Assembly (NCBI GenBank): GCA_039619475.1
Contig: CM077115.1
Coordinates: 140,194,172 to 140,258,171, forward strand
Origin: Icerya purchasi
Taxonomy: Eukaryota; Arthropoda; Insecta; Hemiptera; Monophlebidae
Reading direction: 5' to 3'
Length of the DNA stretch: 64,000 nucleotides
How positions within the stretch are numbered: position 1 is the stretch's first letter; the number at the start of each line of letters is the position of its first letter. Below the pieces are notes generated by a model. It did not search any database and was not told the origin of the DNA. It saw only the letters and a list, made by a program, of their open reading frames with translations. A program made the translations under genes and the position numbers. This document shows, piece by piece, positions 26,778 through 63,602 of this stretch.

Positions 26778-26906
26778 ATGAACCGTAATAATAGTTCTAA
26801 TATATTTGCATTATTCGCAATAGTTATTTGTCTTACAGCTGTGCGCGCCGAATTATGGGCATTTTTAGTAGCTGGCGGCGGAAACTGGATCTCCTACCAT
26901 AGAGAA
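26778..26906 (+). CDS. Gene 2 exon 1: signal peptide and first beta strand
   Basis: The ATG at 26778 opens a hydrophobic core (IFALFAIVICLTAV) with a likely cleavage after residue 24. LWAFLVAGGGNWISYHRE then matches the legumain start, which normally reads WYNYRHQ at this spot. Asn42 of human legumain aligns with Ser39. The donor is GAA/GTAAAT, phase 0. Confidence 0.88.
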
Positions 26907-32900: not shown

Positions 32901-35900
32901 AAAATTTAGTACGATGAAGCAGCCGTTAGTTTTGGTGTCCAACCAATATCATGGTCCGAATGCCATTTTCGTTCGTTTTTTTATATTTTACACCTGCAAA
33001 CTTCCAGTGCGCAGTTCGAGTGTGAAGATTACTAGACCTCTTTTTAATCGCTGACCCAGGTAAACAACGGTATGGAATTCGAGCGCGGCCGTTTGAACCG
33101 CTATTACGTAGGCTGCTCGCTGATCGGCTGAGGCAGCCAGGAGAGATGCTTTATTTCTTTGTCGCCTACATCAGTGCTGTTTTTTACCTATTTGTTCGTC
33201 GTCGTTTCCAGACATGTGGAAATATTCGCTTCCTCTTTGTCGGACGTAGTCATGTTTTACTATTGCCTTGTTGCAATATTAAATCATTAACCGTTAATGG
33301 CCGTTTAACTTCTTCTTCTTCTTTTTAAGAGCCTTGCTCTTGTCTTGTAGCTTAACCTATTATCCTTTTCCATTTTTTTTCTGTCTTGTGCTGTGTTCTT
33401 AATATTATTATAATCCATTTTCAGTTTGATTTTTGTCTGTCCTATCCATTTAAGTCGGGGTCTGCCTCGTTTCCTCTTCCCTTCTAGTTTCCCTTCTATT
33501 ATTGTCGTTATGAAGGTGTTGTGGCGCAGTATGTGTCCCAAAAATCTGCCTCTTCTTTGTTCCAAAATTTTTATCAGCTTCCTTTCTTCTTCTATCATTT
33601 CCATTATTTCTTTATTTGTTTTCTTCTGCGTCCATAAAATATTTAAAATGCGGCGCCATCCCCACATTTCAAAGGCCTCCAATCGCTTTTTAAGATTCTT
33701 TGTTAATACCCATGTTTCCGAACCATATAACAACACACTCCATATGTAAGTCTTCATTAATCTTTTCCTTGTACCTAGTTTGACCTTTTTGTTGAATAAT
33801 TCTCTCTTTTTCATGAAAGTTTGTTTGGCAATTGCTATTCTTGTTCTTACTTCTATATCACTTCTTCCTTCTTGTGTTATAATACTTCCCAAGTATCTAA
33901 AATGATTTACTTGTTCTAATATTTCTTCGCCTAACTTTATCTGTGCCTTCTTTTCATTAATACTAGCTATTAATATTTTTGTTTTTCCTTCATTTATTTT
34001 TAAATTTAATTGTTCCAAGCCTTTTTGTAATGTTAGTAATGGCTCTTGTAGTTGCTCTTCACTTTCAGCTATTAACGCAATATCGTCCGCAAATCTTAAG
34101 CAGTGTATTTCTTCTCCGTTTATTTTCACTCTAACTTTAGTCTTTTCTTTCATCGTTGTAATTGGTTCTTCTATTATTAAATTAAAAAGCATAGGCGATA
34201 ACGGACATCCCCCTGTCTTACTCCTCTTTGTATTTTTGCCTTTTTACTGTACTCTCCGATTCTTATTTCCATCTTTTGATCCTTATATAATTCCCATATA
34301 ATTTTTCTATCATTGTAGTCTATTCCTATTTCTTCCAATTTTGAGAATAATGTTCTCCATGTTACATGATCAAAGGCTTTTTCTATGTCTACAAAAGCTA
34401 TATATAATTCTTCCCTTAGTTCGATTTTTTTTTCTATAATTAGCCTTAATGCCAATATAGCCTCTCGGGTTCCCTTTTCCCTTCTGAATCCATATTGGTC
34501 TCTACTTAACGTTTCTTCTATTTTATTCCTTATTCTTTTCATTATAATTTTTATTATTATTTTTGAGGTATGTGGTATTAAGTTTATTATCCTATATTCT
34601 GAGCAATCTCTTGTATGTAATTTTTTAGGTATTGTTATCACTGCATTGGTTTTGAAATCTTGTGGCAGTTTACCTTGCTCATAACATGTTTTTATTAACT
34701 CGTACAATTCTTCCTGAGTTCCTTTATCAGTCATTTTTAATAAATCGGCTGGTATGTTATCTATGCCTGGCGCCTTTTTGTTTGTCAGCTCTTTCAATGC
34801 CAGATCAAATTCTTCTCTCATTATTCCAGGTCCTTTTTCGTCTCTTCCCTCTCTGTAATCGTTTGTTTTTATTTCTTGTATATTTACCTTTCCTTTATAT
34901 AGATCTTCTATATGTTCTTTCCATCTTCTACATATGTCTTTTTCCGTTATTAGCATTTTTCCCTTTTTATCATTTATGACAACATTTTAATTTGTTAATC
35001 GTTTAAATGATAAAAACTAGCCCGTCCTTTTAATAATCTCTGCATAGCAAATATAATAAGTTAATAATAACAAATGAATAAGATAAATTTTCTACTTAAT
35101 AACGTTTTCGGGCATTATCAGCTAAACCAATATGTGAACAGATACAAATTCTAAGGAGTGTGATTTAGAATTTGTATCTGTTCACATATTGGTTTAGCTG
35201 ATAATGCCCGAAAACGTTACTAAGTAAGAAAATTTATCTTATTCGTTTATTATAATTGTTTATTATATTTGTTATTATTAACTTATTATATTTATATATT
35301 TAACAAACAGTATGAAAAAAGATTCTTCATTAAAAGATTCTTCTGCATAGCAAAATTAAAATGTGATTCCAATCATGAATTACTCAATAATGATCTTATG
35401 TTTTGTTTGATTTATTCAGTTTTAATTTTATAGTTATAACCTGTTGCCTCTTCTATAGAAAAGTAATATTTATTATCGATTGATTTATTAAAAATGATTA
35501 TTTAAAATTATTGTGGCAGGCTGATGTTTGTAACTTGTATCAGATACTACGTGCCAATAATGTACCGAAGGAAAACATTGTTGTGATGATGCCGGACGCT
35601 ATAGCTTATAATTCGAAGTAAGGAAATGTCCGCGCAGAAAGTATTTCGCTTCGTTTACATAACGTTGGATGTAGTTGATTTAAGTTAACGGTTTTTTTAT
35701 TCAATGTTTTCCTCGTTTATATAATTATGTAAATAAAAAAAACACCTAATTAAGCAAAAAAAAAAAAAACATATCGAAACTCTAAAGATGAGTCGTGAAA
35801 TGTGACATTTCGTGACATACGTTCAAGTAGAATTTAAAGAATAATTTTTTATCTTTCCTTTTTGACGGTTGCTTTCAATTTGTTTACAATAATTTTCATT

Positions 35901-38900: not shown

Positions 38901-39799
38901 CCCCTTTTGCACACAAAAAATTAGATTTGCTTGTTTTGAATTTTGTATTATGTAAATGTAAATTACAATTATTTTTAACTTAACACGCGAAATCCTTACC
39001 GCATGAAACATCATGATTGACTGAACTTGTTTTAATATATTCCAATTTTTGCTAGGAATCTCTATCCCGGATTCATGCAGTACTATCCATACGGCCCGAA
39101 CGTTTATGAGGATGTGATTATCGATTACGCTAGAGAAGTAAGTCATCGTATTGTATTTTAATATAATGTATTCATTATAAAGTTTTATAAAATTAAAAAG
39201 AGAATTTTTTTTTTTTTTTTTAATTTCTGATGAAAAAATTACACTGAGACGTCACTCCAAAGTGATGATAAATAATGATTTTAATTTTATCGTTTTTTTA
39301 TTTTTTTTTTATTTATGTCTAATATTATTATTAATTTTAAAAATGTTGTAAACTTTCAGATTGCATTACTAAAATTGTATGCGAGTCAAATTTAAGCAAA
39401 TTTATATTTTCTCTGTTTTTGTAAAATTTTATTTTCCACACTGCAAGTAAACTTGAACGGATTAGAACTTGTTTCACATTAAACGTGATAATATGCGATT
39501 TTTTTAAATGCTTCCATGCGTACGCGCGGGAAATTCTAATTTCAATTGCTTTGTAATATGAAGAGTTGTTTTACAAAAGCAAAGGATTAATGATATTAGA
39601 TTCCACTTTTTCAAAATTTTGCGTTTTAGTAAAAAAATATTGTCAGTGGGGTCCGCTGCTCCATTTTTTGAATTTGGAAAGGAATAAATAATATATGTAA
39701 CACTTTAAATAACATATTGAAAATTATAGTACCGTATAAACTATATAATGGTTTTCTGATCTATCTTTCACTAAAGTTCTCTTTGTATTAACGTGTATA

Positions 39800-39842
<43 letters not shown>

Positions 39843-48800: not shown

Positions 48801-49064
48801 CCAAAAATTCGATAACTAAAGGAAGGAGACGTCAGTGACTGGACTCGACGTAGACGAAGTATTATAAAACAAAGAGGACTTGAATCAGAAACTACTAAAT
48901 GTTTAAAGATACTCAAATTAATATAATTAATATAATTAAGACACGTTAATATGTAGTAATATTTACCCTTTCATTGTATTCATATCCATGGAACTTCAAT
49001 TCCATACTGTATCATAGAGGAAAATAACCGCAGTAGTCGAGCGTCATTAAATAAAATAAATAAT

Positions 49065-49097
<33 letters not shown>

Positions 49098-52000
49098 TTT
49101 GTTTCAGAATGTTACGGCAAATAATTTTTATAATATTCTATGGGGTAATAAACAAAAGGTAAAAGGAGGCAGTGGAAAAGTCATCGAAAGGTAAAACATT
49201 AGTGATTTTTTATATAAAGTATCGGCTGGAATAATTTGTGTTTAAGACTATTTGAACTGTTAAAATAACCCCGAAAACTACGTCGGAACCCAACAAAATT
49301 TAATTGTAATGCTATTGTTGATTAATTATAAACACTTACTTTTAATATAACAGATTAATGGATGACACCTATACTCAAAATTAGAGTGTACCAGCGAGCG
49401 TAAGGCACTACAAATTAAACATTTTTTATGCCGATTTAAACTAATATATATATATATATATATAAATACACATACCTTATCTATAACAGTCAGCTCAATG
49501 GTATATATGGTTGTTTCTGGGCGAGCATAAATTTCTGTATAGTTACATTAGGTAGGGCAAACGCTGCTCCGACATATTTATGAGTTCTATTTATTTCAGA
49601 TTTATCAGTATATATCAATATAAAATCAGAGTACAGTGTTTTGGTACTATTAATAAAATGAGACTTAATTATTGAGTGGTGTGCGTTGTTTAAATTACTG
49701 AACATATTTACATTTATATTCAGATGGTTAGGTTTCAGATATGTGAAGGGGTGAAGTACACAGGGGTGAGGACCTGACTAAATTAATAATATATTTCCAT
49801 TCTTTTGGATAGTAATAGTAATTTTGGATCTTTCAACCGTCAGTTGTTATATAGTAGTAATAGACTATGATTACAGTGCTTAAGAATGAATTTGTCGGTT
49901 AATCCTTTCGTTCACGTATTTTTTCCTATGTTTGAAAAATTTTTTTTTCAAAATAATTTTAATGGCTGGACATGTAAGAGATGTTTTATGCATATTTCAT
50001 CCCTCTCCAACCCTTAGTTTTTGAGATATAGGTTGTTACCAATTGGCAACAGAATGACGAAAAGGAACTTATTCCAGTACAAAATGCATTGAAAGGTTTA
50101 GTAAAAATAACATATAAATGCATTACAATTACATATATTACAATATAATGCTAAATGAAAAATAATATAATCTGAACAATCAAATAAATTTGCATTAAAT
50201 ATCAAATAAATGCATCCAATCACCTTCATTTACATAATTACTGTACAAAAACAAGGTATAACTGAATAAGTGTTTATTTTTACAAATTTATTTAATACTA
50301 ATTTACACACGCATACATTTACACCCACACGCGCATTTTCATTACACAAAAATTATTTGTGAATGTCCCGAAAACAGTTTTTTTTATTATCTAAACAAAG
50401 GTGGATATTACATTTTTCACACATCCACCTGCCGATTCCACTGCAGTTTTGATTTTTACATCTCCCACATGAATTGGTATGTACTACCCAGTGCCCCATT
50501 TGATCCTGAATAATACTTGAACAAGGGCTTGTTTCCTTTAATATTTTGACATTTTTATGTCTTTGCTTTGGCACATAAACTTGAAAAGCGTTACCAAATA
50601 AGCGTCACGAAATGGACCGTCACGGAAAATCGTTACGAACACTTCATGTCTTTACTTGGATGCGACTGATTACTAATATTTTCATGTCTCTTTACTTTGT
50701 CACATAAACTCGAAAAGTTGACATTTTTATGTCTTTGCTTTGGCACATAAACTTGAAAAGCGTTATCAAATAAGCGTCACGAAATGGACCGTCACGGAAA
50801 ATCGTTACGAACACTTCATGTCATTACTTGGATGCGACTGATTACTAATATTTTCATGTCTCTTTACTTTGTCACATAAACTCGAAAAGCGTCACAAAAT
50901 GGAGAAGTGTTTTCTATAACGAAATTCTTATGAAAACCGTAGGGCTGTGTATTTCACACGTCATTTCCTTGTTTACATTTTCTGAGCGCACAAAACAATT
51001 ACCATAGTAATTATAAATTAAATGTAACTTTAGTCTCGTGTACACCGTTTCTTTCCCATGAAAAGTGTTATTACGAGACGCACATCGCGGACGACGTGTA
51101 CGCCGGTGCGCGAACGAGAGACCAACTCGCGTCGGCTCGCACTAAGGTGCACAAGATGAAGCTCGACGAGACGGGTGGTCTACCATACAAGATCGAGCTC
51201 CTTATTGACAAGCCGTACATGGTGCAAGTAAACATCGACGTCACCGACGGTCTCGTGAACGGCGCGATAGGTCTGCTGCAGTACATCGAACGCTCTCGCG
51301 AAACCGGCAGGATAATTCGACTTTGGCTAAAATTCGACAACGTTAAAATCGGTAAATTACTACGAGCGAAAGCGGCGGGACACTATGTAGCGTACCCGTG
51401 TATCTACGAGCATTGAACGCCAATCGGCTTACGTTCGTCAACGGTGACACTTCCTAGTAAGATGGTTACCTGTAAACGATCGACATTTCCACTCACAGCT
51501 GCTTGCGCGATATCGATTCACAAATCGCAAGGCAGTACATACCCGGCGGTGGTATACGAATACTCGAAATCGCACGACCAGCAACTCGTGTACGTCGCTC
51601 TGTCTCGATGTTCTTTGTACGAAAGGTTGTTCCTAACGAATAGGAATGGCGACCACCGATTTTACCACGGACGCGAAAAACAGTTGAAAGACATTAGAAC
51701 TGAGTTTGAACGTCTTACACGTCATCGTTTGAGCACGCACGCTTCCCGCTGTCGAGATTTTGTGGATCTTTCGCGTACTCGGACTGTCGATGCTCTCACG
51801 CTATGTTCATTCAACGTTCAGTCGTTGCGCTCACACTCGCTCGATATAACGTGTGACTTCGTTATACCTTCGTGCAGTTTACTCGCTCTCTCTGAAACGT
51901 GGTTATCAAACGCCGATTGCGATAAATTTGAACTTGAAAGTTACTCGCTCGTAAATCGACACAAACGCGACAACGGCAACATGGCTGGTGGTATAGCGAT

Positions 52001-55000
52001 TTACGAAAGGAAATTGGATTCGGACGTTCTGAAGAGCCGCAGTCGGCCGCTGATTTGTATTAATCAGGAAAAAAATGGTCTCGAAGAATGTAACGTGATA
52101 TCGATGGACGTCGGTGATATATGCAAAGCCGAAACGGCGATCGATGGAGAGCGTGTGTTACTCGTAGCGACGTACCTCTCAAACGGGACAACGTTGAACG
52201 ATAAGATCAATTTCTTCGAGCGTTATCTACTACCGTACTCGATCAAGCTGAAAGGTCTGTTTCTCTTTATCGATGAAATAAAGCTGTACGATTTACCGAC
52301 CATAGTCTGTGGTGATTTCAACATCGATTTCCGCTCGGACGATGGATTGCGATTCCGTCAATTCATGAGTGAAACGTTCGGTTGTGAGATGAATAATTCG
52401 GTGGACCTTTCGACAACGCGAAATATGACGTGCATCGACGGAATCTTTACTCGAAACGTTATCGAACGTACAACCGTTAGCTTACTTGTGTCGACGCTTT
52501 TCTCACCATCGGCCATTGCTCACTATTACTACCCCTAACGATAATGATGTAAATAAGGAACCTTGTACCAGCGGTAGTAGTTGTTAAATGGATATATTTT
52601 TGCAAATACATTGAAATATAATATGTACAAAGCATTTAGAGGTACAGTAGGTAGGTTCAATCTCGAAATAATACGTTTCGATATAATATGTACAAGGCAT
52701 ATTTAGAGGTTACACGGCGACATTCTCATATCGACAGAGGCCGCGAAGCGAACGACGTTTTAATGTCGGCGGATGCCTGAATGGCTGTACAAAACCTACT
52801 TTTACGGGAAAACATGAACATGTCTCACTGTGTTGCGGACTTGTACGCAAGCTGTTTCCTTTGGTTTCACCGCTGCACTGGTGCTAAAGTCTTTGAGTAT
52901 GGATTCGCTCTCCTTTATTACTACAATTTTCACCAAACAAGTTTTTTTTTGTTAGTGGTGAATTATCTTGTAAATCCTCGTGAGATGGCCTTCTCTTTGA
53001 ACACTGACATTCTGGGGAAAATTTACCATAGAGTCATAATGTAACCAATTGGCAACAATGAATTTCAAAAAAATCATACTCACAACATACAGTACATTAA
53101 GTAAATATAAATATATAACAAAAATCTACATGCCTTTTTAAGTTAAAAATCGTATAAGCTTCGTTTTTTAAAAATAAATTAACATATAAAAAGAACGTAA
53201 AACTGGGACCTAAAAAATATAAATCACGTGCCGACAAAAATCGGTAACTTCAACTGCAAATAAACAATATATTTTTTGGCTTTCAACACTGTTTTTGTTA
53301 ATAATCGATAAAGTGGCTTGTTACCAAATGGCAACATAATGTCACAACGTATAATATTATAAAAGTCTCATAATATATGAAATTAAAATAAATGTTACCA
53401 ATTGGCAACATTGTGAACGAAAGGGTTAATATATTTCTCCTGAAGTATATTAGTGGTAAGTTTGTCTCCGTATGTAAACAAAGGTCGGCAGAAGATCTAA
53501 TACCCCCAGTTACCAGTCTCAAGGCACTAATTCTGTACCACGTACAATATTTTAAAACTTGTAATAGCGGCAAAACCTTAAAACATATAAACATAATCCA
53601 TCTTCGATCTAATTAATGCCTTATATAATCTTTCTATTACTACTAGGTCAGCTCGCCAGGACGTATTACATAATGCTTTAACAGGGTCTAGTAATTTATG
53701 GATTTTGGCTTGAAGGTCTGTTATATGCTGTATCCAAGAGAGTTTCTATTATTGAACCTAAATATTTTATATGAGGCAATAAATTAATGGCCATGAATAT
53801 CAATACAAGGATCGTGTATGTTACGTGATCTAATATTGGAGATAGTTTGGAAAGATTTTGATGTAGATATGTTAAATTTTATTTTCCGAAAGTAACTGTT
53901 GCATAAATTTATTGTTATTTGGTTACTATTTTTATTATAGCAAGCCATATGTCAACTCTTACAATCACCTTCCCCTATTCTAGTTCACTATTTTTCCGAT
54001 TCGCCTTCTTCTGCCATCCTTTTTAGGATATGCAACTTTTAGGCCTTTTTTTATATTTTGAAATTACCTCTAAATTTCGTTATTTGCACACTTTTTTTTT
54101 TTATGGTACACTTTGTCGGTGTTGCTTGCTGCCTTTGATTAAGTCATTTGATAACATACGATGACCCATTCTCAGTGATTTATTTGAGTGGTGGGAGCCT
54201 TTATTCTATATTTTCATTTTACAGTTACTTGCCTCCTTCAACTAAGTTGGTTGATAGCATACGATGATGCTAATGTTATAATTATTTTGAGTAATGAGAG
54301 CTTTTGTTTTCCTTTTATTGCTATTTTATTTCTTATTTTTGTCTCTTCCTTCCCAAAGCGTTTTATCGGCGATGCTTGCAACCTTCAGCTAGTTAATAGC
54401 ACATGACGACCTTTACGCAATGATTTATTTCAGTGGTAGGAGCTTGTATCTCACATCAGTTTCCTTATCCAAAATTCTTTTATTTGCTCTTATCTATTTA
54501 TCAACTTGTCTTTTAATGTGTGATAATACTGCATTCGTCTGTTTGCTTACCCTTTTCCTGTTTTATTTTCCGTTGGCTTTTCTTGATCTTTCACCACATT
54601 TTCAGTTTCTTTACACTTTCTTGTATTTCTTCTCTTATCGAAGAACCCCCTATGGTTTGTTAACTTATAATATTGCAATGTAAATGCCGTAGCATCGAGG
54701 TCAAAAACTCAGAGCGGCTAAACATAACGTGAACATGGTTCTACTTTCTGAAACCCGGAAAATATTCTTCGGACATAAACTTCCGAAGTTTCTTCATAAT
54801 TTTCTCTAACGGTAGTGGCACCTACGGTGCCTCATTTTAATAAGAAACGACATCCAATTCATCACGAATGACGAACAACCCTTATTTCTCCCTAATCCTC
54901 CTTATTCCAATTAAGTTAATATCTCTATTCTTAACTATTCTCCCAAACCTTTAAATTCGTATCTGCTTATATTCCTCCTAATTATGATTTGCGCAATTTT

Positions 55001-58000
55001 CCTTTCCAGATACTTACTAGCTCACTCTCTTTCCCATTTTTCATGGGCGGTGATTGGACTGCTCATTCGCCTTTGTGGGGTTGTAATACTTACTACAGAG
55101 ATGGCACGGTTTTAAAGAATTTTATTCTTCAAAATGATCTGCTTCTCCTCCTCAGTGATGGTTCTCCTATTTGTATCTGCAGCCACTCCCTTTTCAGCTC
55201 CATTTCCTTCTCTTTTACCTTTCACATATAGTAAATTGAACACGGTACCTTCGGAAGTGTGATCACATTTCTATAATTATTTCTTTTAATGAAATTCCCT
55301 CTTTACTTCCCTCTAATCTCCTTCATATTCCTAAATGGGTTCCTTCCAAAGTAGGTCAGTTTAACCTCCGTTGTTGTTTTGATTCCTTACTTTCTTTAAT
55401 CTCGACAAACCTGAATCGTTCTTTTCGATATGATTTGTATATCGACTCTGTTTCTTCTACCATAAATCGCTCTTCCCTCTGGTTCACGCTTTAGCTCCCA
55501 AAATAGTTAAAATATTAGAACTGTAAAACTACTTTTGGCCTGAGTCTATCTACATTCAGAACATTTCATTTTTCCCCTACTTTCATCATCTTTCTCGTCC
55601 ATAAAAAAACCAATGACAAATCCAGATTTACCATGAAATGGCTAAAAAACTCATAGAAAAACTTCTGTATCTCCTTCTCACGCTCCAATTGTATTTCTTA
55701 TATTTTGAGGACGGCTAGGGTCTTTAAATTCCCTCCAGCCTCGTGTCTTTTTAACTAAAATTTTCCTATTAATAAATTAACTCACTTCATGGATTTTATA
55801 GTCTGCAGGTATGTTCCTAACTTCAAAGAATCATGTAAAATTTCGTTCTTTCCAATTCTTTGAAATTTTTAATTTCTCCTTTTACCTTTGCAGAACTGGA
55901 AGTATCCTTTAATTCCTCTCCGGCAATAGATGGGGAATTTCCTCTCCCATCCTTAAAAACCTTCCTGATTATCCTCTTCGGTTTCTTTTGAACCTATTTT
56001 TTCTCAGTGTTTTTCCTTTCACAATATTATTCTTCTCTCCGCTGCTGCTCGATTCAAATTATGGTCAACTTCTTATTCCTCCTCATTCCCAAATCCTAAT
56101 TCCTTTGATCTTTCTATCAAACCTAATGTTTTTATCCCTGGTTCTTAAATTTTCCCTCCTTCAGTTTTTTCTGTTGCCTGTTGTCTGCGCTTCGGGCATA
56201 GCTTATTTCCTCGATCTCGTTTACACTTGTCGTCCCTTGCTTTCTCTGTACACTGTTCTATCCACCCAACTACTCCCTCAATTTTATAGGTACTGTGGGT
56301 CACATTCTATTCGAGTGCTCCTTTTCTACTCTTCGCTCTTATTAATTGATCTTCCAACCTCGTATTATAAGTCCTTTATTTTCTCATTACCTTCTCCTTC
56401 AGTTATTCTAGCCTTTAAGTCCTTCCATCCTCCATATCTGATCGTGTAAGTATCTGATACCGCCTTTTCTCCGTTTTCCGGTTCTTGAACCATGTTCCAT
56501 GTAGACCAGTCCAAAAGAAAAGCAAAAAAAAAAACAAATACAACATATAATTGACAAATAGTGATTGATGTCGAATGTAACAAATAAATTAGCACGTTAA
56601 ATATGCATGTCGAAATTGTTCCATCGTGTCGACTACAATCCATAACAAGAAAATGAAAAATAAATAAGCTCGACTAAATTCGTATTTGATATTTTATACT
56701 TTTACATATTTCGATTATTTCAATTATTTAGATTATTTAGATTATTTAGATTATAAAATTAAATTGTTTTTTTCTAATTTTTTAGTCAACCAGATGATAC
56801 AGTACTAGTGTACATTTCTTCCCCTGGATGGTATACAGCAGCGTGGCTCAACAACGATGAAACAATTTATGCATCGAGTTTCACAAACGAGCTTAAAGCT
56901 CTGGATGAAGATGAACGTTTTGAAAAGGTAAAGGATGTACGATTATTAGAAAAAAAATTACAGTAATTCTTGAGGCAATAGGCATAGTTAAGTGATCTTG
57001 TAATTACTATTGTAATTTAGTATAAATTTATTACGAATAGCTTTTTGGTTTTTATGAGGAACGAATTCAGTTCAGTCCTTTACAGCTTTATTAGCGATGT
57101 ATTTGATGGAAATTTTTTCGTTTTACCTTCTCTTCAACCTCAAAGATCCTCTCCTAATCTTCCGCACTTAATTCCCGAAATTCTTTCTGAAGATTTTACT
57201 CACCTTGACAGCCTCTTTCTCTTTTTGGAAAACCTTAAACTCCTACACCTAATCTAATACCTCTCGTAATCTCCGGTTGCATATGGCCTGATGAGTAGCC
57301 GAAAACGCCGTTTTTTGTTGTTGTTTTTTTTGTAATAATAAATAAAATAAATAAATAAAAATGAAAAAAATGTTAAATTTTTAATAAATACGAATGTGAT
57401 TTTTAAATTCTAATTTTGTGTAAAGGAAAACAAATATTTTTTGTTCCTCATTATTTCGCAACATACTGATTGCCTCGGCGGAACAAATTCCTTTCCTCGT
57501 AGTAACACATACTTTAAAACCACTGTTTTGATTTTTTTTTTTATGTAGAAGGAATACTGCATTTAACCATATTTCTCTCTTTGCCATCGTCACTACATTT
57601 TCAGTCCCGCGAAATTCATTCTTTACTTCATCGCAATCCTTTTTTAATTAATTTCCCCAGTACTCTCTACCGATTATTTATATTTAACTTCACGCATGCG
57701 CCTACTACTTTTTTGCTTCACTGTTTGATTTTTTATGATAGCATTTTTAAACGAAGCTATTTATTAACTTATTATCGCATCGTAATATAATCTTAATTAG
57801 TTAAAAAAATATTTCGTAAGATACGGTGCATTATTTATACGGATTTCACGCGAGAAAAAATTATAAAAGTTAAAATAGTAAACGTGGAATTGGGTTTTAA
57901 AAAAAAATCAATTCTACAATTAATATATATTCTTATTCTTTCGCTTAATAAGTTATTGTTATAAAGTAGTAGCCTAGTTGTTAGAACGATCAAACTACCA

Positions 58001-61000
58001 AGGGCCGAAATTATGAGTTTGGGAATTGGCGATAATAAGTAAATATCAATAAAAATTAATAATGTTTTCGTTTTATTTATTTTAATTACAATTATTTGTG
58101 ATTCAAGTTCCGGAGAAACTACTAAGATTATTATAGCGTATAGATCAGAATGAACCAAAGGAAAATCTGGCCAAATAGCCGTTCCTACGGATCGTGAGAT
58201 ATCCTTTACTTGTTTCTGCTCGTTTGGCAACGTAAGAGGAGGTGAGATGGAAAAGATTACAGTAGATGAACGTGGATAGCGTTTCGAAAGATAAGTTTCT
58301 CGGTTGACAGGACTGTTAAATTACATAAAGAACAGAAAGAGGCAGGAAATGTGCCGTCCAAAGATAATTAACTCGTTGATATGCGTCCATTTGTGGCATA
58401 ATTCACGGCCATCATTAGTTTACACGTTTGTTAAGTGAAGCTTAGATTAGTCAGTGAAATTTGCACTAGGCGAATTTGAACTATTTTCTATTTATGAGGC
58501 GCACCCATATTATGCTTGTTTATATTTCAAAGATGGTTTAACGGCGGGAAAACCCCGCCTACATGCTCAATGAAATTTTCATCGGAAAAGATATTTTTCT
58601 TAGTCTTTCAAAGTCCATCATAAAAGATGATTAGCTATCATCAAATAATGGTTTAGCTTGCACTAGTATGTCTTCCGTATGTTAAAGATTAATTGTTTGC
58701 GTTTGTACGGTATTTTAAAGAGAAAATAGCTCTGGTGGTAGTTTGTACTTTCAGTTTTTCCATTCTGTAATATTAAATTAATTGTTCGTAGATTATAAGG
58801 CGAGGTTTAGTTCCAGCTTATCTAATGTGTTCTCGGCTGCTGATGGATGGAATTGTTTAATAAATATACGCTCTGATGAAATGCTACATTATTATTTATC
58901 TCATTAGTTGATACTGATGCCTCCATTGGTTGTTCAAGTTATGGGCTAATATGTTGCACTTGTTGCAAGAATGCCGTTCAAGACCTAAAAATGCTCGGCG
59001 TTCTCTGTTATTGCAGTTGAATATAACAATGAGTTGGATACTTGTATACAGTTGCTGTGTTCAATAGCTCTCACTGTGCGACCAAATTCATCAGTAGTAA
59101 AATTTACCCATAGTATATGGTAATTGGAGTTAACGGTTTTAACTTGAGCATCGTCAAGTGCATTGATGCAATTTGCCGTTTGCTATTGTCGTGACATTTT
59201 TCTAATGGGATTTTTGCTTCTTCGCGCCCTTAGTGTGTAGTCTTATCTAAGCCCATCAGCAAAAAATACCAATCCGTAATTTGAACTGTTTTTAGTTATT
59301 TGTCATTACTAATTTTTGATCTAGCAAAATTATATTAGCCGAACCGTCAACTTGATAAGTGATTTTTTCCATTTCTTGCAATATTCTTTGATACTTTTTG
59401 TTGGTCTCCTTTTTCATGCACGTCAGCACGCGCTTAGTAAACATTTTGCATGTCGATGTCATTTTCCAATCAGTTATGTTAAGAACATTTCTACGCAAAA
59501 ATCTTAATACAATATTGCTATCCGAAGGTATGACTTCATATTGTTAGCCGTTATAGATGACACTACTACGACGAGAAAACGTAATAAAAGCAGCATTCAA
59601 TTTTTAGATAGATTAAATCATGTACTATAACATTATGGATACTGCTGAGTGAGATGAACTGGACGACGATCGATCACATTCCGAACGAATGACCTCGTAT
59701 CAAAGCCATTAAAACAGGATGGACAGAAGCCAAGATGGTGTCTACCAGCTGAAGAAACCCCACATTTGGTCGAATTCTAGTTTACGATTAGGTTATTTCA
59801 GTTTTTTTCCTCCGCATTCCGTGGATAACAAAAAATCTCATTTAAACGAATATCCCACAAGACGAACATATACGCCTTAGTAGTTTGATGTTAATACCGG
59901 TGCGGGGTTTAAACAGTTCTATAACAGTTTTACTCGGCTATTTTTAATATTTGACCAATGTTTCACGTGTTTATATTGTTTTTCTCGTAGGAAGAAGTCC
60001 AATATGTAATTTTTCTGTCTTTCATAATGGACTCTAGAGTAATGCTCTATTACAGTTTACTCGGTTAAGAATTTCTATAATTTCTTTGTTTAACGGCGAA
60101 AATCTTCAGGAGATTGTAAAATAAAAAAAAAAAAAAAAATGACTAATCACTGGCAAAAGCGAAGTAGTGATGAAATAAAAACTCGAATAAAGAGTTCAAC
60201 AAAAATAAATATTTTTTACACACGTGATGCCGCACAAAAAAAAAAAACCAAAAAAAAAACAACAGTAGAGTGAATGGGAAGCAAAAAGAAGATAGAAATG
60301 ATATGAGAATGTAGAAGAAACAATCTTCCCGATGACCTATTGGATGAGATGACATAGTCTCAGCTGGTTAATTCCTAATTTATACGCTGACAAAATTGTT
60401 ATTGGAAGCTACAAATATATTTTTATTATTAATTAACTCTCGTTAGAGAGAGAGACACCTACACACATATTCATTTGATCCATTATGGACTGGACCCTAC
60501 CGTATATCTTATTTTAAAATTTGACACATGTCTGACGCTTAACGTTAATTTTCAGATGTTCGTTATGCTGGAAAAGTCAGACGGGCAAATGTTTTTTGAT
60601 GGTTTATTACCGGAAGATATAAGCGGTAAGAAAAACGAGTAATTTTTCAAACATTAAACTGATTTCAAAAAAAAACTATGAAGAAATAATTTTTTAGTTA
60701 ATAATATCGGATAAGGTCTTTATCTGAATTTTTTTTTGGTTCCATTGATTAATTATCCAAAAAAAAGAAAGAAAGAGTCCAACAATATAATAATAAACTC
60801 GCACGAATTTTTTGTCACTGATGTAAAATTTAATCTTATCCGTTTGCACACTTTATATCGTAATCGATTCGTAGTCCCTTGTGGGTTGGCATTTTTCGTT
60901 CACTTATACCCCGATAGGAACTGATACTACACGATAAGTAAATGACTGCTATTTGAAGATTTTTAATTCTGGCAAGCTACGTGCTCTTTTTCGTAGTTGT

Positions 61001-63602
61001 ATTACCGTCGATTCATTCAGATTAATGACTCTTATTAAATTAAAAATTGCCTCTGATTAAGTAAACATTATGAAAATTTTTGTTTTCGGTTCATTTAATA
61101 TCATTAATTTTCGACCGATCTCACATTTTAAAAGTAACTACGTTTTCGTTCTTCTTCCTTCTTAGCAATAATAATGAATGCGTTGATTTCTCGGTACTTC
61201 AACAAAAACGCAATAGCAATCGGTGAAAAATGTCATTTAATTCTCTAACCGAGTCGCTATTAAAATATTTACAGTGTTTGCGTTGGCAACAACAGCCGAT
61301 GGAGAAATTACAAAATTGTGCCACGAAAGTGACGAACTCAACGTGCTCGGACTCGCAAGTTGCTACAGTTTAGTGTGGACACGTTTATTACAACTGGTAT
61401 TTCACAAATTATTACGTCACAATTTAATCTGTACTTTCATAAGCTAATAAAAGAAGTTTTAAATTGTTCCAAATGAATCAACTAAACCTGAAATCGTTTT
61501 GCAGATTGGAATCCGAAAAGACATCAACGCGGTTAATTTATTCGATTACTACCAGTTGGCCAGAAGCATATACCAAGAAACAAACGTCAACTTTTACGGT
61601 GAACTCGAAATCGGTCAAAGTAACGTTAAGCACTTTTTCGGCAACCCGAATCATCATAAGTCGACGAAGCCTTTAACGCAACAGATCAAAGTACACACAC
61701 ACACACAATCGTCTAATAAGTACCCGATGAAAAGCCATTTCGTTCGGAATTGCGGGGTTCTTCTAGTGAAAGCGGTGTTGAATTTTTGCAAGTTATAAAA
61801 ATAATAATACGTATCATAATTAAAAAAGAAAAAAACGGGTCATTTTTACAAATTTAGGCTTTTAGGTAAAATAATTATTAGTGTAAAGAGAAATATCGGA
61901 AGATGAAATTATTATTTTTTTTATAAACCGTATTTGAAGGAATAGAGATACAGGCCATAATTAAAAATAATCGCTTTGTTTTGTTATTAAGGTTTTCATG
62001 CGGATACTTTAGAAACGAACAGAACGTGCTGCTGCCTGATGATCGCATCTGATAAAAACCCCACGCATATTTAATGATACTTGCCGAATTAAACTGCTCC
62101 TCATCGGGTACATTTTCTTCTATCGTGGTACACACAACGATTTTCACGCAATTGTTTAACATAAAATTCTATTAAACCTCACCGACATCAACTTACGCTA
62201 ATTTCTATAGATGTTTATTGATTACTCGCCAAATAAATTTCAATGCTATATACAAACGGTAAAATTACTATGGCAGTTCAGAATCAATTTGAAAGTTGAT
62301 TGTAATTCGCTGATGATTACTCGGTTTTGCTGATGTCTCTTTTAAAAACTGCTATGCAACGTTCTTTTTTATTTTTTTTTTTTAAATTTTTAAAAGAGTC
62401 CGCCTGCGGGTTCGCAACATAATTATATCGTAGAGCGTTTGTGCGCCGTTTGCTGTCTATTACTGAAAGGAAATTATCATTAACGCGAGGAAAAAATATA
62501 CGTGTTTCTTTAAGAGCTGCTTATGTTGTGTTAACAGAATTCTTTATTGAATTGGTATATTCTATTCCATTAGAAAAGTGTGTTAGAAACACTCGGGGTC
62601 ACAGGTCCGTGGTGACATTCCCCGACCGAAATCACGTGTCCGCCTACGTGCGATAATTTGTTCGGTTCTTTTTCTGTTAATTATACCTCTCGTGCATCTT
62701 ACTTGCGTGTACTGTCTTTTTGGAATAAATAACAAAGTCAAAAGTCTAATGCTCACAGTATTTTATCTGATCTAGTCAAATATTGTAAAGACAAACGTTT
62801 CCGGGCACTGAAAAGTTTCAGAGTACTGAATTAGGGGCTGAAATCAACAGAAGTTAGATTCAGAGAATGAAATAAATGTTTCATTAGACGGTTTTTTTTT
62901 GGTTTTTTTGTTTTTTTCTTAAAACATCGTAGCAAGAACAAAAAATCGGGAGAAAAAATCCATTTCACTGAAATTCGTATCACTGACGACCGAAAGAGAA
63001 ATTAGAAGCTAAAATCTGTTTCACTGACTCCGTGAACTGGAAAAGAAATCGAAATTTGTTTCATCGGCGCGGGAACCGGTACGGAGAAATCTGAATAAAA
63101 GTAAATTCTGAAATTCGTTTTAGTGGCACCGGGAACAGCAGAGATTCGAAAATAAGATACGGTCTCAAATTCGTTTCATTCGCTTCCCCCCGGAACAGGA
63201 ATTGGCCAAATTCGTTTCAATATTCAACTTTTCTCCGTCGTCAATCTTTTTTAAAATTTCCTCAAACTGAATTTCATCTAAACGAAGCTGTCGACTCTCT
63301 TGCTAGATCTATAACCCTTAAGATACTTTCTATTAATTAGCAAGTTAAATTATGACATCCCCCATTTATGTTTTGTTTTTCTAAGTTATTACGAACTAAA
63401 ACAATATCTTATTTTTTGTAGAATTCTGTGAAATTTACAGATTAAAAATCCTGATGTATACAGGAGATGCATTAATTTTCAGGTGAACACGAACATGTTG
63501 GAAGATGAATTTCCCGCAGAAATGCTCAGACTACAAATAGCGGGAACAGCAGTTGAAACGGTGAAACAAGATTTGGAACATCAGTTAGCATTACTGTATG
63601 AG
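26778..63602 (+). CDS. Legumain-like (peptidase C13) predicted pseudoprotease, spliced, 3' end outside window
   Basis: Nine exons join in frame: 26778-26906, 35520-35617, 39056-39137, 49108-49190, 56786-56927, 60556-60625, 61275-61396, 61505-61690, 63483-63602 (1032 nt, 344 codons). Residues 1-24 form a signal peptide. The rest follows legumain block by block: ADVCNLYQIL (44-53), VVMM...IAY (64-73), a GSGKV block (124-128), VLVYIS (137-142), ATTADG, a YG..IG..V..F.G end, and a propeptide-like helical exon. Legumain is an asparaginyl endopeptidase with an Asn-His-Cys active site. Here the equivalents are Ser39, Pro144 and Ser186 (or Lys185, depending on a one-residue gap). The S1-pocket Arg-His is His41-Arg42. 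It is probably secreted or endolysosomal but catalytically inactive. All junctions are GT-AG, the frame has no stops, and the exons lie among transposons. Confidence 0.88.
27205..27685. mobile_element. Non-autonomous hAT-like element
   Basis: The ends are inverted: CAGGGCCGTATCTAGA on the left and the complement of CAGGGCCGCATCTGAG on the right. Internal G-rich tracts flank both ends. The flanking octamers (AAGAGGTC and AAAAAATC) agree at only five positions, so the target duplication is worn or absent. A central segment is shared with the repeat near 22150. Confidence 0.65.
27686..29889. other. Gene 2 intron 1, no feature recognised
   Basis: AT-rich sequence with no recognisable coding or transposon signature on either strand. 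A GC-richer stretch near 29470-29560 has no readable motif. Confidence 0.4.
29890..30890 (-). mobile_element. RTE-like LINE fragment, polymerase and tail
   Basis: Read on the minus strand: AIDRLWTIKGL near 30850, then EMGAPRHLVRLIANLYEHST, a KTK-type block after the lost catalytic centre, FSVFLYGAATWTL near 30280, and a tail with GRCGRVPTRWSDMMW near 30020. The order is that of an RTE-like reverse transcriptase palm, thumb and tail. Frames are broken and the YADD region is damaged. Confidence 0.75.
30908..31010 (-). repeat. Retroposon 3' end with A-tail (minus strand)
   Basis: A T run (A-tail on the minus strand) precedes a conserved segment containing GTGGGTTCCCAACATAATTA. A second copy lies at 62360-62430 in the same orientation. 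The host element is not identified. Confidence 0.55.
31011..33300. other. Gene 2 intron 1 continued, no gene recognised
   Basis: No confident coding or transposon protein match. The stretch at 33030-33260 is less AT-rich and has several CpGs, but its open frame carries no known motif. Confidence 0.4.
33305..34960 (-). mobile_element. RTE-like LINE, 5'-truncated, with one frameshift in the polymerase
   Basis: Two minus frames (34956-34177 and 34192-33305) together give most of a reverse transcriptase: KAPGIDNIPADLLK, YGFRREKGTREA, AFVDIEKAFDHV (motif A), GVRQG (motif B), LRFADDIALIAESEEQL (motif C), FRYLGSIIT, LLYGSETW and GKRKRGRPRLKW. A single reading-frame change falls just after GVRQG at about 34195-34215. 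No apurinic endonuclease domain is present, so the copy is 5'-truncated. A (GAA)n-like tail lies at 33309-33327, overlapping the end of the last frame. It is the best-preserved LINE in the window. Confidence 0.88.
35039..35354. mobile_element. Long near-perfect hairpin flanked by a 13-bp direct repeat
   Basis: Bases 35101-35154 are exactly complementary to 35164-35217 (54 bp), separated by a 9-base loop. Pairing extends outward to about 35050 and 35290, with one 20-nt insertion in the right arm. TCTGCATAGCAAA occurs at 35039-35051 and again at 35342-35354, as a target duplication would. There is no coding capacity. It lies 166 bases upstream of gene 2 exon 2. Confidence 0.85.
35520..35617 (+). 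CDS. Gene 2 exon 2
   Basis: The acceptor is TTGTGGCAG and the donor CGAA/GTAAGG. It enters in phase 0 and leaves with two bases of a codon. It codes ADVCNLYQILRANNVPKEN followed by IVVMM and IAYNS, a very close match to the legumain ADVCHAYQ and IVVMMYDDIAY region. Confidence 0.92.
36148..36190. repeat. Short palindrome around AAGACGTCTT motifs
   Basis: TTTAAAGACGTCTT and AAAAGACGTCTTTAAA face each other across a few bases, giving a stem of about 17 bp. Function unknown. Confidence 0.6.
36587..37161 (-). mobile_element. LINE RNase H-tail fragment
   Basis: Minus frames read MTRYYIRALFRLRTGHCLTH and, after a frame change, CTCEERGSVEHMIWSCRLYD, the C-x-C...H...C tail that follows RNase H in jockey/Loa-like elements. 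It is a C-terminal relic. Confidence 0.65.
37190..37432 (+). mobile_element. I/jockey-like LINE polymerase fragment
   Basis: The + frames read DIDAANEALNSSLNLLE, INLSMSPSKSSYVVFTLR and (shifted) VLARVNCF. They correspond closely to the polymerase segment of the LINE at 45.8-48.0 kb (INLSISPSKSSYTIFTLR, SLSRVNCF), so they belong to one family. Confidence 0.75.
37433..37834 (-). mobile_element. RTE-like LINE C-terminal fragment
   Basis: Minus frames read LEIKEREILRKIYGPLKEN, then IRKRRISFYGHIMRMNNTRL and a tail ending near EDIHVNLRDLVEGK. This is the post-polymerase tail of an RTE-like family different from the one at 33305. It meets an opposite-strand I-like fragment at about 37432. Confidence 0.7.
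38183..39050 (+). repeat. Duplicated intronic segment, copy 1
   Basis: The segment from GAATTTAGAACGACCTCAAA through TATTATGTAAATGTA to CTGAACTTGTTTTA is repeated at 43686-44690 in the same orientation. Copy 1 contains two tandem subunits of about 250 bp (near 38460 and 38715), where copy 2 has one. It ends a few bases before the acceptor of gene 2 exon 3. Confidence 0.8.
39056..39137 (+). CDS. Gene 2 exon 3
   Basis: The acceptor is TTTTTGCTAG and the donor GAA/GTAAGT. The first base completes the codon split at exon 2. It codes NLYPGFMQYYPYGPNVYEDV and then DYARE, following the legumain N-x-x-P-G...P-x-G-x-x-V-Y...D-Y pattern. Confidence 0.9.
39788..41072. mobile_element. Microsatellite-bounded interspersed element
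   Basis: It is bounded by (TA)n at 39788-39842 and by TATATATATAGATATATA near 41046. The start ACTAGCTGACCCAGCCACG and the end, with AAAATCGGTTAAGTAAATTCC and ACACGGGATTTATATA, are features I associate with widespread insect interspersed repeats. A 45-bp segment (ATTTAATATAACAAATATTT and beyond) is duplicated near 40800 and 40895. No transposase was found. Confidence 0.55.
42012..42281 (+). repeat. SINE family 1, full-length tRNA-derived copy
   Basis: The head has an A-box-like GTGGTAGTCTAGTG and a B-box-like GGGTTCGAGATT with the spacing of a pol III tRNA promoter. An unrelated body follows, ending in CTTATCAAGGGTATGG. Two other copies lie at 23103 and 25682. It is not a functional tRNA gene because no complete cloverleaf follows. 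Confidence 0.85.
42282..43640 (-). mobile_element. Jockey-like LINE reverse transcriptase remnant
   Basis: Read on the minus strand: SLKNKKNPCYDLMTAKLLKE near 43480, RKPGKDRHDVFSYRPISLLP near 43330, QHSTVDQ, TAVFIDVAQAFDEMCHKSL near 43080 (motif A), SYGSVLGPTLYLLYTADFP near 42900 (motif B), VVTFADETVLLW near 42830 (motif C with D changed to E) and YLDMHVDRRLTWRQHID near 42600. The order is complete for jockey-like polymerases. Several stops and the DD to DE change mean that it is dead. Confidence 0.85.
43686..44690 (+). repeat. Duplicated intronic segment, copy 2, with a SINE inserted
   Basis: This copy of the 38183-39050 segment carries a SINE at 44199-44585. Copy 1 has the uninterrupted site (TATGTAAATGTAAATTAC), so the SINE arrived after the duplication or after the repeat dispersed. 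Confidence 0.78.
44199..44585 (+). repeat. SINE family 2, tRNA-derived, with target duplication
   Basis: The head has TAGTTGCTAGAGCG (A-box-like, 44209-44222) and GTCTCGATCCTG (B-box-like, 44242-44253). The body has GGAAGGCAATGGTAAACCAC and the end is a GATGATGAT-type tail. TAAATGTTA at 44190-44198 and 44586-44594 is the target duplication. The family differs from SINE family 1. Confidence 0.82.
45529..48123. mobile_element. hAT element split by a LINE insertion
   Basis: The ends are inverted: CAGGAGTGGCTAACC at the left and the complement of CAGGAGTGGTCAACC at the right. The flanking octamers ATTTACAT (45521-45528) and ATCTACAT (48124-48131) match at 7 of 8 positions. GCGGGCCGC-type sequence near each end is typical of this hAT group. 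No hAT transposase remains; the interior is mostly the LINE at 45798-48000. Confidence 0.8.
45798..48005 (-). mobile_element. I/jockey-like LINE: reverse transcriptase, RNase H and tail
   Basis: Starting inside the polymerase near 48000 (minus), it reads ASFIDVSSAFDNVHLPTL (motif A), RSSSLSPTLFNIYTISIA (motif B), SSFFADDILLFSPS (motif C at about 47625), SPSKSSYTIFTLRP, CYLGVFLDSRLSFSEHIKY, an RNase H region with TIYTDG near 46770, LIISDSLSALQVIS and WVPSHSGIFGNEAADI near 46450, and a tail with CPLHHPDDAVICDADHLFFH. An A-tail lies at 45798-45822. Two or three frame changes make it inactive. It is 5'-truncated and inserted in the hAT element. Confidence 0.88.
48270..49100 (+). mobile_element. 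LINE 3' part with (AAT)n tail next to gene 2 exon 4
   Basis: The + frame 48297-48497 reads ALKYYFKLGMNKAHPNYYKT, the region between polymerase and RNase H in I/R1-like elements. After a deletion that removes most of RNase H, it continues NKREEVSLAKIRIGHTRLTY, CSFCQLSAPT and a HIINECQKF-type end. The 3' end is a (TAA)n tract at about 49064-49099, only 8 bases before the splice acceptor AG. Confidence 0.82.
49108..49190 (+). CDS. Gene 2 exon 4, short exon abutting a LINE tail
   Basis: This exon is too short to stand out as an open frame. It was found by looking for the missing phase and the missing legumain segment. It codes NVTANNFYNILWGNK and then VKGGSGKVIE, matching the legumain VTPxNFLxVLxG...GSGKVLxS segment. 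It leaves with two bases that combine with the T of exon 5 to give Ser131. The acceptor TTTTGTTTCAG follows an (AAT)n LINE tail immediately. Confidence 0.9.
49420..49898 (-). mobile_element. LINE RNase H fragment, downstream half of a split element
   Basis: The minus frame 49705-49490 reads SDFILIYTDKSEINRTHKYV followed by GAAFALP, the RNase H start with DG changed to DK. Its polymerase half lies beyond the piggyBac element at 53430-53960 in the same orientation. Confidence 0.7.
50353..50574 (-). pseudogene. piggyBac transposase C-terminal zinc-finger remnant
   Basis: It keeps about seven cysteines and a histidine in C-x2-C...C-x2-C...C...C...H spacing, which in piggyBac transposases contacts the inner terminal sequences. 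The DDD catalytic core is not present upstream; instead the frame enters a 172-bp tandem duplication at about 50546. Confidence 0.8.
50546..50889. repeat. Tandem duplication, two units of 172 bp
   Basis: TTGACATTTTTATGTCTTTG begins at 50546 and again at 50718, and the units are almost identical through CACATAAACTCGAAAAG. High identity implies a recent duplication inside the piggyBac element. Within each unit, CACATAAACT(T/C)GAAAAG occurs twice. Confidence 0.85.
51066..52540 (+). mobile_element. Helentron (Helitron-like) helicase C-terminus and endonuclease
   Basis: One frame is open from about 51066 to 52538 except for a TGA at 51414-51416. First comes the C-terminal part of a Pif1-type helicase (PYMVQVNIDVTDGLVNGAI; CAISIHKSQGSTYPAVVYEY; QLVYVALSRC), then an apurinic-like endonuclease domain (TLCSFNVQSLRSHSLDIT; LLALSETWL; GGIAIYE; TIVCGDFNIDF). 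Helicase joined to endonuclease at the C-terminus marks Helentron-type rolling-circle transposons. The Rep domain and the helicase start are absent. The segment is more GC-rich and has many more CpGs than its surroundings, which suggests recent arrival. Confidence 0.9.
52541..53040. other. Right interior of the piggyBac element
   Basis: It includes a 25-bp direct repeat (ATATAATATGTACAA...TTTAGAGGT near 52616 and 52682) and an open frame 52781-53044 without recognised motifs. It may be Helentron 3' sequence or worn transposase DNA. Confidence 0.4.
53430..53960 (-). mobile_element. LINE polymerase-thumb fragment, upstream half of a split element
   Basis: Minus frames read LDPVKALCNTSWRADLVVIE, RLYKALIRSKMDYV and, shifted, ISALRLVTGGIRSSADLCLH followed by TETNLPLIYFRR. 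This is the segment between polymerase and RNase H. The RNase H half is at 49420-49898, so the piggyBac element split one LINE. Confidence 0.78.
54113..56470 (+). mobile_element. I/jockey-like LINE with 5' tandem units and endonuclease domain
   Basis: Three degenerate units of about 95 bp (from 54113, 54222 and 54363), sharing TTGATA(A)CATACGATGA and GTGGGAGC-like blocks, precede an endonuclease domain. Near 55010-55200 that domain reads FFMGGDWTAHSPLWGC and then GTVLKNFILQNDLLLLLSDG. A worn region follows, with a tail (CLRFGHSLFPRSRLHLSSL; a cysteine-histidine end near 56310) like that of the element at 45.8-48.0 kb. The catalytic polymerase is deleted and the frame has many stops. Confidence 0.7.
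56786..56927 (+). CDS. Gene 2 exon 5: region of the lost catalytic histidine
   Basis: The acceptor is AATTTTTTAG and the donor AAAAG/GTAAAG. It codes QPDDTVLVYISSPGWYT followed by WLNNDETIY and a helix ending DEDERFEK. Legumains read VFVYFTDHGSTG here, so the catalytic His is Pro144 while the following Gly stays. Confidence 0.92.
57040..57375 (+). mobile_element. LINE 3' end fragment with A-rich tail
   Basis: The C-terminal frame NLPHLIPEILSEDFTHLDSL ends at 57257 and resembles the LP.LIIPEI end of the element at 45.9 kb. An untranslated stretch (GGCCTGATGAGTAGCCGAAA) and a (AAATA)n tail follow. It lies downstream of gene 2 exon 5, so it is a separate insertion from the element at 54.1-56.5 kb. 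Confidence 0.6.
57376..60555. other. Gene 2 intron 5, largely unassigned
   Basis: Minus-strand open segments at 58.2-59.5 kb show some codon-like character (for example 59498-59292, Lys-rich) but no domain I can name. A/T homopolymers cluster at 60120-60260. Confidence 0.35.
60556..60625 (+). CDS. Gene 2 exon 6: region of the lost catalytic cysteine
   Basis: The acceptor is TTAATTTTCAG and the donor AGCG/GTAAGA, phase 1 out. It codes MFVMLEKSDGQMFFDGLLPE followed by DIS. Legumains read FYIEACESGSM...LP.DI at this point. Glu184 keeps the S1 glutamate, but the Ala-Cys that follows is Lys-Ser with one residue deleted nearby. Confidence 0.9.
61275..61396 (+). CDS. Gene 2 exon 7
   Basis: The acceptor is TATTTACAG and the donor CTG/GTATTT. 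It enters after one carried base and leaves in phase 0. It codes FALATTADGEITKLCHESDE and then LNVLGLASCYSLVW. It matches the legumain YATTAANP...YLGDWYSVNW segment, but the Asp of GDW (an S1 residue) is lost. Confidence 0.9.
61505..61690 (+). CDS. Gene 2 exon 8: end of the catalytic-like domain
   Basis: The acceptor is CGTTTTGCAG and the donor ATCAAA/GTACAC. It codes a helix (LFDYYQLARSIYQE), then VNFYGELEIGQSNVKHFFGN, matching the conserved YG..I....V..FQG end of the legumain core, and a short basic linker. If the weak donor is skipped, the frame continues to a stop at 61798 and would give a protein truncated before the propeptide. Confidence 0.88.
61691..62359. other. Start of gene 2 intron 8, nothing recognised
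   Basis: It starts with a (CA)n-like tract at 61693-61708. The remaining sequence is AT-rich with no recognised coding or repeat signature. Confidence 0.4.
62360..62430 (-). repeat. Retroposon 3' end, second copy
   Basis: A T run followed by TGCGGGTTCGCAACATAATT matches the segment at 30908-31010 in the same orientation, so it is an A-tailed minus-strand retroposon end. The parent family is not identified. Confidence 0.5.
62940..63215. repeat. Degenerate minisatellite in gene 2 intron 8
   Basis: Four or five units of about 55-60 bases share AAATTCGTTTCACTGAC, a CCGGGAACAG-like block and a GAAATC...GAAG block. Divergence between units is high. Confidence 0.65.
63483..63602 (+). CDS. Gene 2 exon 9: propeptide-like helical region
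   Basis: The acceptor is TTAATTTTCAG and the donor TATGAG/GTAATA. It codes 40 residues with FPAEMLRLQIAG and VKQDLEHQLALLYE, similar in spacing and character to the helical start of the legumain C-terminal prodomain. Legumains need further residues, so at least one more exon lies to the right of the window. Confidence 0.82.

Follow-up and report, generated by a model that had tools for sequence, protein, structure and literature searches.

A nine-exon legumain homologue of Icerya purchasi with its catalytic triad replaced, probably a maintained pseudoprotease

Introduction

Can a legumain homologue that has lost all three of its catalytic residues still be a gene kept by selection, and what might its product do? 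The question is raised by a locus of the sap-feeding insect Icerya purchasi, in a window of 64,000 nucleotides (C1:140194172-140258171; C1 is the larger chromosome, with 601,656,059 bases, and C2 has 497,304,701). A first-pass annotation of this window, made from the letters alone, had described nine in-frame exons following legumain "from signal peptide to propeptide", with the catalytic triad replaced, and had read them as a selected pseudoprotease, perhaps a secreted inhibitor, decoy or binding protein, with a set of changes not known from any described family. According to one study, legumain is missing from most insect orders, sap- or blood-feeding hemipterans being the exception (PMC4398375); contrary to that statement, the protein matches listed in our searches include some named legumain from cockroach, termite and thrips. 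The paper on the I. purchasi assembly reports two chromosomes, and the word "legumain" is absent from its main text (PMC11183206).

Homology to legumain

The window protein (344 aa) matched the catalytic-domain profile PF01650 with 165.2 bits (E 2.8e-48), far above the cut-off of 22.8, and its first 103 residues alone gave an E-value of 1.4e-18. The family C13 assignment of the first-pass annotation was borne out by the profile alignment. A phmmer comparison with solved structures returned legumains first (6xt5, E 2e-40). The GPI-anchor transamidase PIGK/GPI8 belongs to the same C13 family; its best match was far weaker (4.9e-15), which ruled out membership in GPI8. Judged by these matches, the window gene is a C13 member by descent and stands nearer to the legumains than to the GPI transamidases. 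Another C13 gene, located at C2:183.96 Mb and resembling GPI8 on our reading, keeps the catalytic His and Cys.

With legumain (C13; PDB 6xt5 and 4d3y; Myzus persicae P0001) the window protein shares the PF01650 profile, the order of the motifs and the final YG..V..F.G, and both have an N-terminal hydrophobic stretch. It differs from legumain in the catalytic Asn, His and Cys, in the Arg-His pair and the Asp of the S1 pocket, and, over its 344 residues, in leaving the prodomain model PF20985 unmatched. Its identity to P0001 is 29%. On the strength of the profile match, the legumain fold is likely.

Gene model and splicing

The nine exons lie on the plus strand between positions 26778 and 63602 of the window and join in frame to 1032 nt, or 344 codons, without a stop. 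Their splice sites (eight AG acceptors and nine GT donors) are all canonical, and the exit phases from exon 1 to exon 9 are 0-2-0-2-0-1-0-0-0. Exon 1 (26778-26906) carries the start codon, a hydrophobic N-terminus (roughly residues 1-24, a putative signal peptide) and the first strand, together with the position of the catalytic Asn, here Ser39, and that of the Arg-His pair, here His41-Arg42. The hydrophobic core, IFALFAIVICL, has a mean hydropathy of 3.36 and is followed by VRA, which suggests that the protein is secreted. Exons 2 (35520-35617; 98 nt; residues 44-76) and 3 (39056-39137; 82 nt; residues 76-103) have the same lengths as in four paralogue models described below, and exon 2 also the same phase. 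Exon 4 (49108-49190; residues 104-131) contains the GGSGKV block and has 83 nt, compared with 86 in the four paralogue models. Exon 5 (56786-56927; residues 131-178) has 142 nt, compared with 139 in the four, and holds Pro144 at the position of the catalytic His (SSPG for DHG). Exon 6 (60556-60625; residues 179-202), with 70 nt as in the four paralogue models, holds Ser186 at the position of the catalytic Cys (EKSDGQ for EACESG). Exon 7 (61275-61396; residues 202-242) has 122 nt, where the paralogue models have 119 nt in three cases and 123 in one, and Ser230 stands in it for the Asp of GDW. Exon 8 (61505-61690; residues 243-304) brings the end of the C13 domain (YGELEIG..FFG), and exon 9 (63483-63602; residues 305-344) encodes a linker like the start of the aphid propeptide and ends at a GT donor.

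We ran a purpose-written spliced-profile aligner, blind to the exon positions, over positions 26001-64000 of the plus strand with a profile built from ten legumains (six from plants, three from aphids and one unnamed). The alignment recovered eight of the nine exons with no stop and no frameshift. In it exon 1 begins at Trp27, the ends of exons 2-7 are identical, and exon 8 starts at the same position and stops 6 nt short of the donor. Exon 9 was absent from this blind model, and its basis is its splice sites and its likeness to the Myzus linker (ETVKQDLEHQLALLYE compared with SSVKYELEHDMLSLPE). Since exon 9 terminates at a donor, the gene continues past it. A search of 30 kb downstream for a later prodomain exon gave nothing clearly above the reverse-strand control (scores of 35-40 compared with 34 and 38); the best place was an open frame resembling, by eye, transposon sequence and was rejected. 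A prodomain search of the same kind in 8.4 kb beside an intact-triad paralogue also returned no prodomain exon. The nine in-frame exons with matching phases and the frame free of stops and frameshifts were confirmed, the former by splice sites and 344 open codons, the latter by exon joining and, for exons 1-8, by the blind alignment. The phrase "signal peptide to propeptide" held only in part: exon 9 reaches the linker at most, the 344 residues, from a model in which later exons are absent, gave no match to PF20985, and no clear later prodomain exon was seen. A gene-model error as the explanation was rejected on the exon lengths, which match those of the paralogues.

Replacement of catalytic and substrate-pocket residues

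Alignment with retrieved relatives placed Ser39, Pro144 and Ser186 at the positions of the catalytic Asn, His and Cys, with Lys185 at the preceding Ala, and so confirmed the equivalents proposed by the first-pass annotation. The swap of Arg-His to His41-Arg42 and the loss of the GDW Asp (Ser230) were confirmed in the same way. Thr214 replaces a further Ser, and Glu184 is kept; we take the Arg, His, Glu, Ser and Asp at these positions of legumain to line the S1 pocket. Compared with 12 sequences judged active from their residues (two of the I. purchasi genome and ten from the protein searches), the window gene is changed at 26 of 64 invariant positions.

For a wider comparison, 240 proteins were retrieved, as the best 120 of 2018 matches and the best 120 of 2256, with about 8000 candidates scored per search. 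The 237 shorter than 610 aa were used, and P0004, P0005 and P0008 (over 609 aa) were left out. Catalytic Asn, His and Cys were all kept in 236 of the 237; lists of this kind are biased towards typical enzymes and may leave out rare dead homologues. The one exception, P0122, an unnamed ENA protein, has Tyr for the catalytic His and keeps Asn and Cys.

We defined a near-invariant set of 65 columns that are at least 97% identical among the 237 proteins. In the window gene 31 of these positions are lost and 34 kept, while the losses among the 237 had a median of 0, a maximum of 18 (P0126) and a next-highest value of 13 (P0240). P0126, a model named partial, keeps Asn, His and Cys despite its 18 losses, and heavy loss alone is therefore no proof of enzyme death. 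In the window gene the lost positions lean towards the active site in sequence: 17 of the 31 lost positions lie within five residues of it, compared with 8 of the 34 kept ones (p 0.012). The same lean gave p 0.0026 within eight residues and p 0.11 within three; when the site residues themselves were removed, the values were p 0.53, 0.087 and 0.016 for three, five and eight residues, respectively. Of the 34 kept residues, 20 fall between residues 50 and 135, at a distance along the sequence from the positions of the triad, so that the fold is likely kept and the catalytic face changed. Judged by the catalytic chemistry of clan CD, no hydrolysis by the legumain mechanism is expected, since the nucleophile, the base and the Asn are missing and the pocket that binds Asn is altered.

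Legumain paralogues in the genome

A PF01650 search of the genome, which has 41 contigs and 1,103,370,081 bases, yielded 38 exon matches: 27 at C2:166.94-167.90 Mb, four at C2:383.9 Mb, three at C2:452.0 Mb, two at C1:188.8 Mb and two at C2:183.96 Mb. None of the 38 lay in the window. Several matches contain a stop, which probably belongs to an intron; at C2:183.96 Mb the gene model splices around such places. Ten of the matches at C2:166.94-167.90 Mb cover the DHG exon, which points to a legumain array with ten copies or more. The DHG motif was kept in all five DHG exons examined in the array (L002, L003, L004, L006 and L008), and the catalytic Cys in both exon-6 places found (L007 and L052); the array pieces L048, L049, L050 and L051 showed no exon 6.

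Of the copies in the array, the one at 167.61-167.63 Mb carries the triad and has lost 7 of the near-invariant positions, and the paralogue at C2:383.9 Mb has an intact triad and three losses. Two dispersed copies resemble the window gene in having the catalytic Cys replaced within an open frame. At C2:452.0 Mb (L035-L039, C2:452.02-452.06 Mb) Cys is replaced by Ser, Asn and His are kept, and 12 of 65 near-invariant positions are lost. At C1:188.8 Mb (L040-L043, C1:188.80-188.84 Mb) Cys is replaced by Arg, His is kept, and 15 of 61 positions are lost, with exon 1 not reliably found. Both differ from the window gene in keeping His where it has Pro and in having fewer losses than its 31 of 65. 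No stop or frameshift was needed in the models of any of these paralogues, the array copy and the C13 gene at C2:183.96 Mb included.

The exon comparison covered exons 2-7; ahead of exon 8 the paralogue models show mini-exons of 8-18 nt, which are probable artefacts. In three paralogue models these exons measure 98-82-86-139-70-119 nt with common phases; in the window gene they measure 98-82-83-142-70-122 nt with the same phases, so that exons 4, 5 and 7 each differ by three bases from three of the four models. The C1:188.8 model agrees with the other paralogues through exon 6, and its exon 7 has 123 nt and a different phase after it. Its residues before profile position 52 come from spurious mini-exons; they were left out of the codon and tree work and kept in the residue counts. 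Given the exon lengths and phases common with the paralogues, the window gene looks like an intron-retaining duplicate, and an origin as a retrocopy is not favoured. The genome search revealed no second close copy of the window protein; its best outside match by E-value, at C2:383.9 Mb, had 53% identity over 34 residues. In the protein tree the window gene was placed with a support of 57, and we therefore claim neither its nearest relative nor the independence of the three Cys losses.

Tests of constraint on the reading frame

The first-pass annotation had argued that a gene under no constraint would show stops, and a simulation of drift from an intact paralogue agreed. Wherever the probability of at least 24 of 65 changes reached 4% or more, the probability of no stop in 344 codons was 0.001 or less, and the product of both chances was about 4e-5 at best. 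The threshold of 24 is the 31 positions lost minus the 7 lost by the array copy. The test is conservative because frameshifts were not counted; it calls for a discount of about tenfold because an intact copy was chosen out of the fourteen or more in the genome, and a starting enzyme as divergent as P0126 would weaken it.

A codon model was fitted to five genes and 258 columns on an assumed tree. The log-likelihood was -4205.0 with the omega of the window branch set to 1, -4194.6 at 0.2, -4188.0 at 0.05 and -4184.5 at 0.01. An omega of 1 was thus rejected, lying 20 log units below the best value tried, with dS saturated. The optimum is not bracketed, the log-likelihood still rising at 0.01, the lowest value tried, and the omega of this branch averages the time before and after the catalytic loss, including the time as an enzyme. 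The omega of the other branches jumped between 0.008 and 0.072 from one profile row to the next, a sign of a flat, saturated surface. The branch of the window gene measured 1.67 substitutions per site, compared with 0.31-0.80 for the four paralogues, a length that relaxed constraint fits as well as a new function does. No orthologue of the window gene was recognised among the protein matches listed.

Discussion

Taking together the gene model, the homology, the residue losses, the paralogues and the intact frame, all directly observed, we consider the window gene to be probably a maintained legumain-fold pseudoprotease with a binding role, its product probably secreted or lumenal. An intron-retaining duplication within the legumain family would have produced its ancestor. 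Catalysis would then have been lost through replacement of the nucleophile, the general base and the Asn and alteration of the S1 pocket, and selection would have retained the gene after this loss. The product, secreted or lumenal, may bind through the remodelled catalytic face. The likeliest partners would be gut or saliva proteins, for example active legumain paralogues or plant-sap proteins; any choice of partner from these paralogues or sap proteins is conjecture, in which we place little confidence. The earlier reading of a selected pseudoprotease is partly and indirectly supported, by the lost triad and S1 residues, the other near-invariant residues kept, the intact frame and the rejection of omega = 1.

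An unlikely alternative is that the gene is a decaying paralogue whose function is gone and whose constraint is relaxed, and which by chance has no stop or frameshift yet. Its branch of 1.67 substitutions per site, the 31 of 65 near-invariant positions lost, protein-search matches that reach no more than 29% identity and the terminal exons not found in the 30 kb searched downstream would all fit such decay. Neutral drift far-reaching enough to cause such losses would very probably have introduced stops, even with frameshifts uncounted, whereas the splice sites are intact, the exons that differ in length are off by three bases from three paralogue models, and omega = 1 is rejected on the window branch.

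Improbable, and more so than decay, is a decoy function, in which the dead protease would bind plant or own cystatins and shield active legumains. The genome does hold an expanded legumain set, whose examined exons retain the catalytic residues. The Asn motif of cystatins enters the legumain S1 pocket, and a classical cystatin decoy is less likely because this pocket is also altered here, with Arg-His swapped, Asp lost and a Ser replaced. In one study, cystatin inhibition of legumains is described as working via an Asn motif (PMC3407033). For a fluke inactive cathepsin B paralogue, a complex with chicken cystatin is reported, whereas human cystatins B and C gave no complex with the forms tested (PMC7054455). 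An enzyme with a new mechanism, for example with Ser186 as nucleophile and another base, would have in its favour the Ser at the Cys position and the paralogue in which Cys is likewise Ser with Asn and His kept; with Pro for the general base, Ser for the stabilising Asn and an altered substrate pocket, we regard it as scarcely credible.

The preferred reading, a maintained pseudoprotease, has a parallel in another protease family. The inactive cathepsin B paralogues of Trichobilharzia regenti, as described in PMC7054455, are likewise paralogues of a digestive-type cysteine protease that have lost the nucleophile and have active paralogues alongside. They belong to family C1, with another fold, and have lost the catalytic Cys with changes elsewhere, whereas the window gene has changes at S1 residues and at each of the three catalytic ones; for the cathepsin B paralogues, expression and binding have been demonstrated. 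The statement that no family with this exact set of changes is known stands in part: none of the 237 retrieved proteins has it, and inactive protease paralogues as such are known (PMC7054455). Among the literature matches listed, no title concerned inactive legumains in insects (most papers of subscription journals lie outside that search), and the pairing of "legumain" with "scale insect" gave only pine wilt disease. Pseudoproteases are known in several families, and a schistosome legumain is reported to have Asn for the catalytic Cys.

A legumain homologue without all three catalytic residues and with altered S1 residues, yet with an open nine-exon frame, is unusual by the standard of the 237 retrieved proteins, and the same genome offers for comparison an intact-triad paralogue and two copies in which only the Cys is seen to be lost. 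We put forward, tentatively and with more doubt than belief, that in I. purchasi, alongside a large expansion of legumains, copies turned non-catalytic on as many as three occasions (by Ser-Pro-Ser in the window gene, elsewhere by Cys to Ser and by Cys to Arg), and that the window gene, the most remodelled of them, would encode a secreted legumain-fold binding protein for feeding or for regulating its active sisters, of a family undescribed before. If the gene is maintained, the legumain scaffold would be reusable for binding in a sap-feeding insect. Recognition of the replaced residues could also stop annotation pipelines from calling the window gene an active protease.

Other elements in the window

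Upstream of the legumain gene, positions 1162-1521 and 8218-9006 (plus strand) gave a weak zf-AD match (20.5 bits, below the cut-off of 28) and C2H2 zinc-finger matches below their cut-off, which perhaps belong to one zinc-finger gene. Reverse-transcriptase pieces (PF00078) lie on the minus strand in introns 1 and 3, at 33305-34986 and 42719-43054, the last piece below its cut-off. Intron 4 contains, at 51417-52538 (plus strand), an open frame with a UvrD_C_2 match and an endonuclease match below the cut-off, Helitron-like by reading, and near it lies a tandem pair of 172 bases (50546-50889) with 98% matches.
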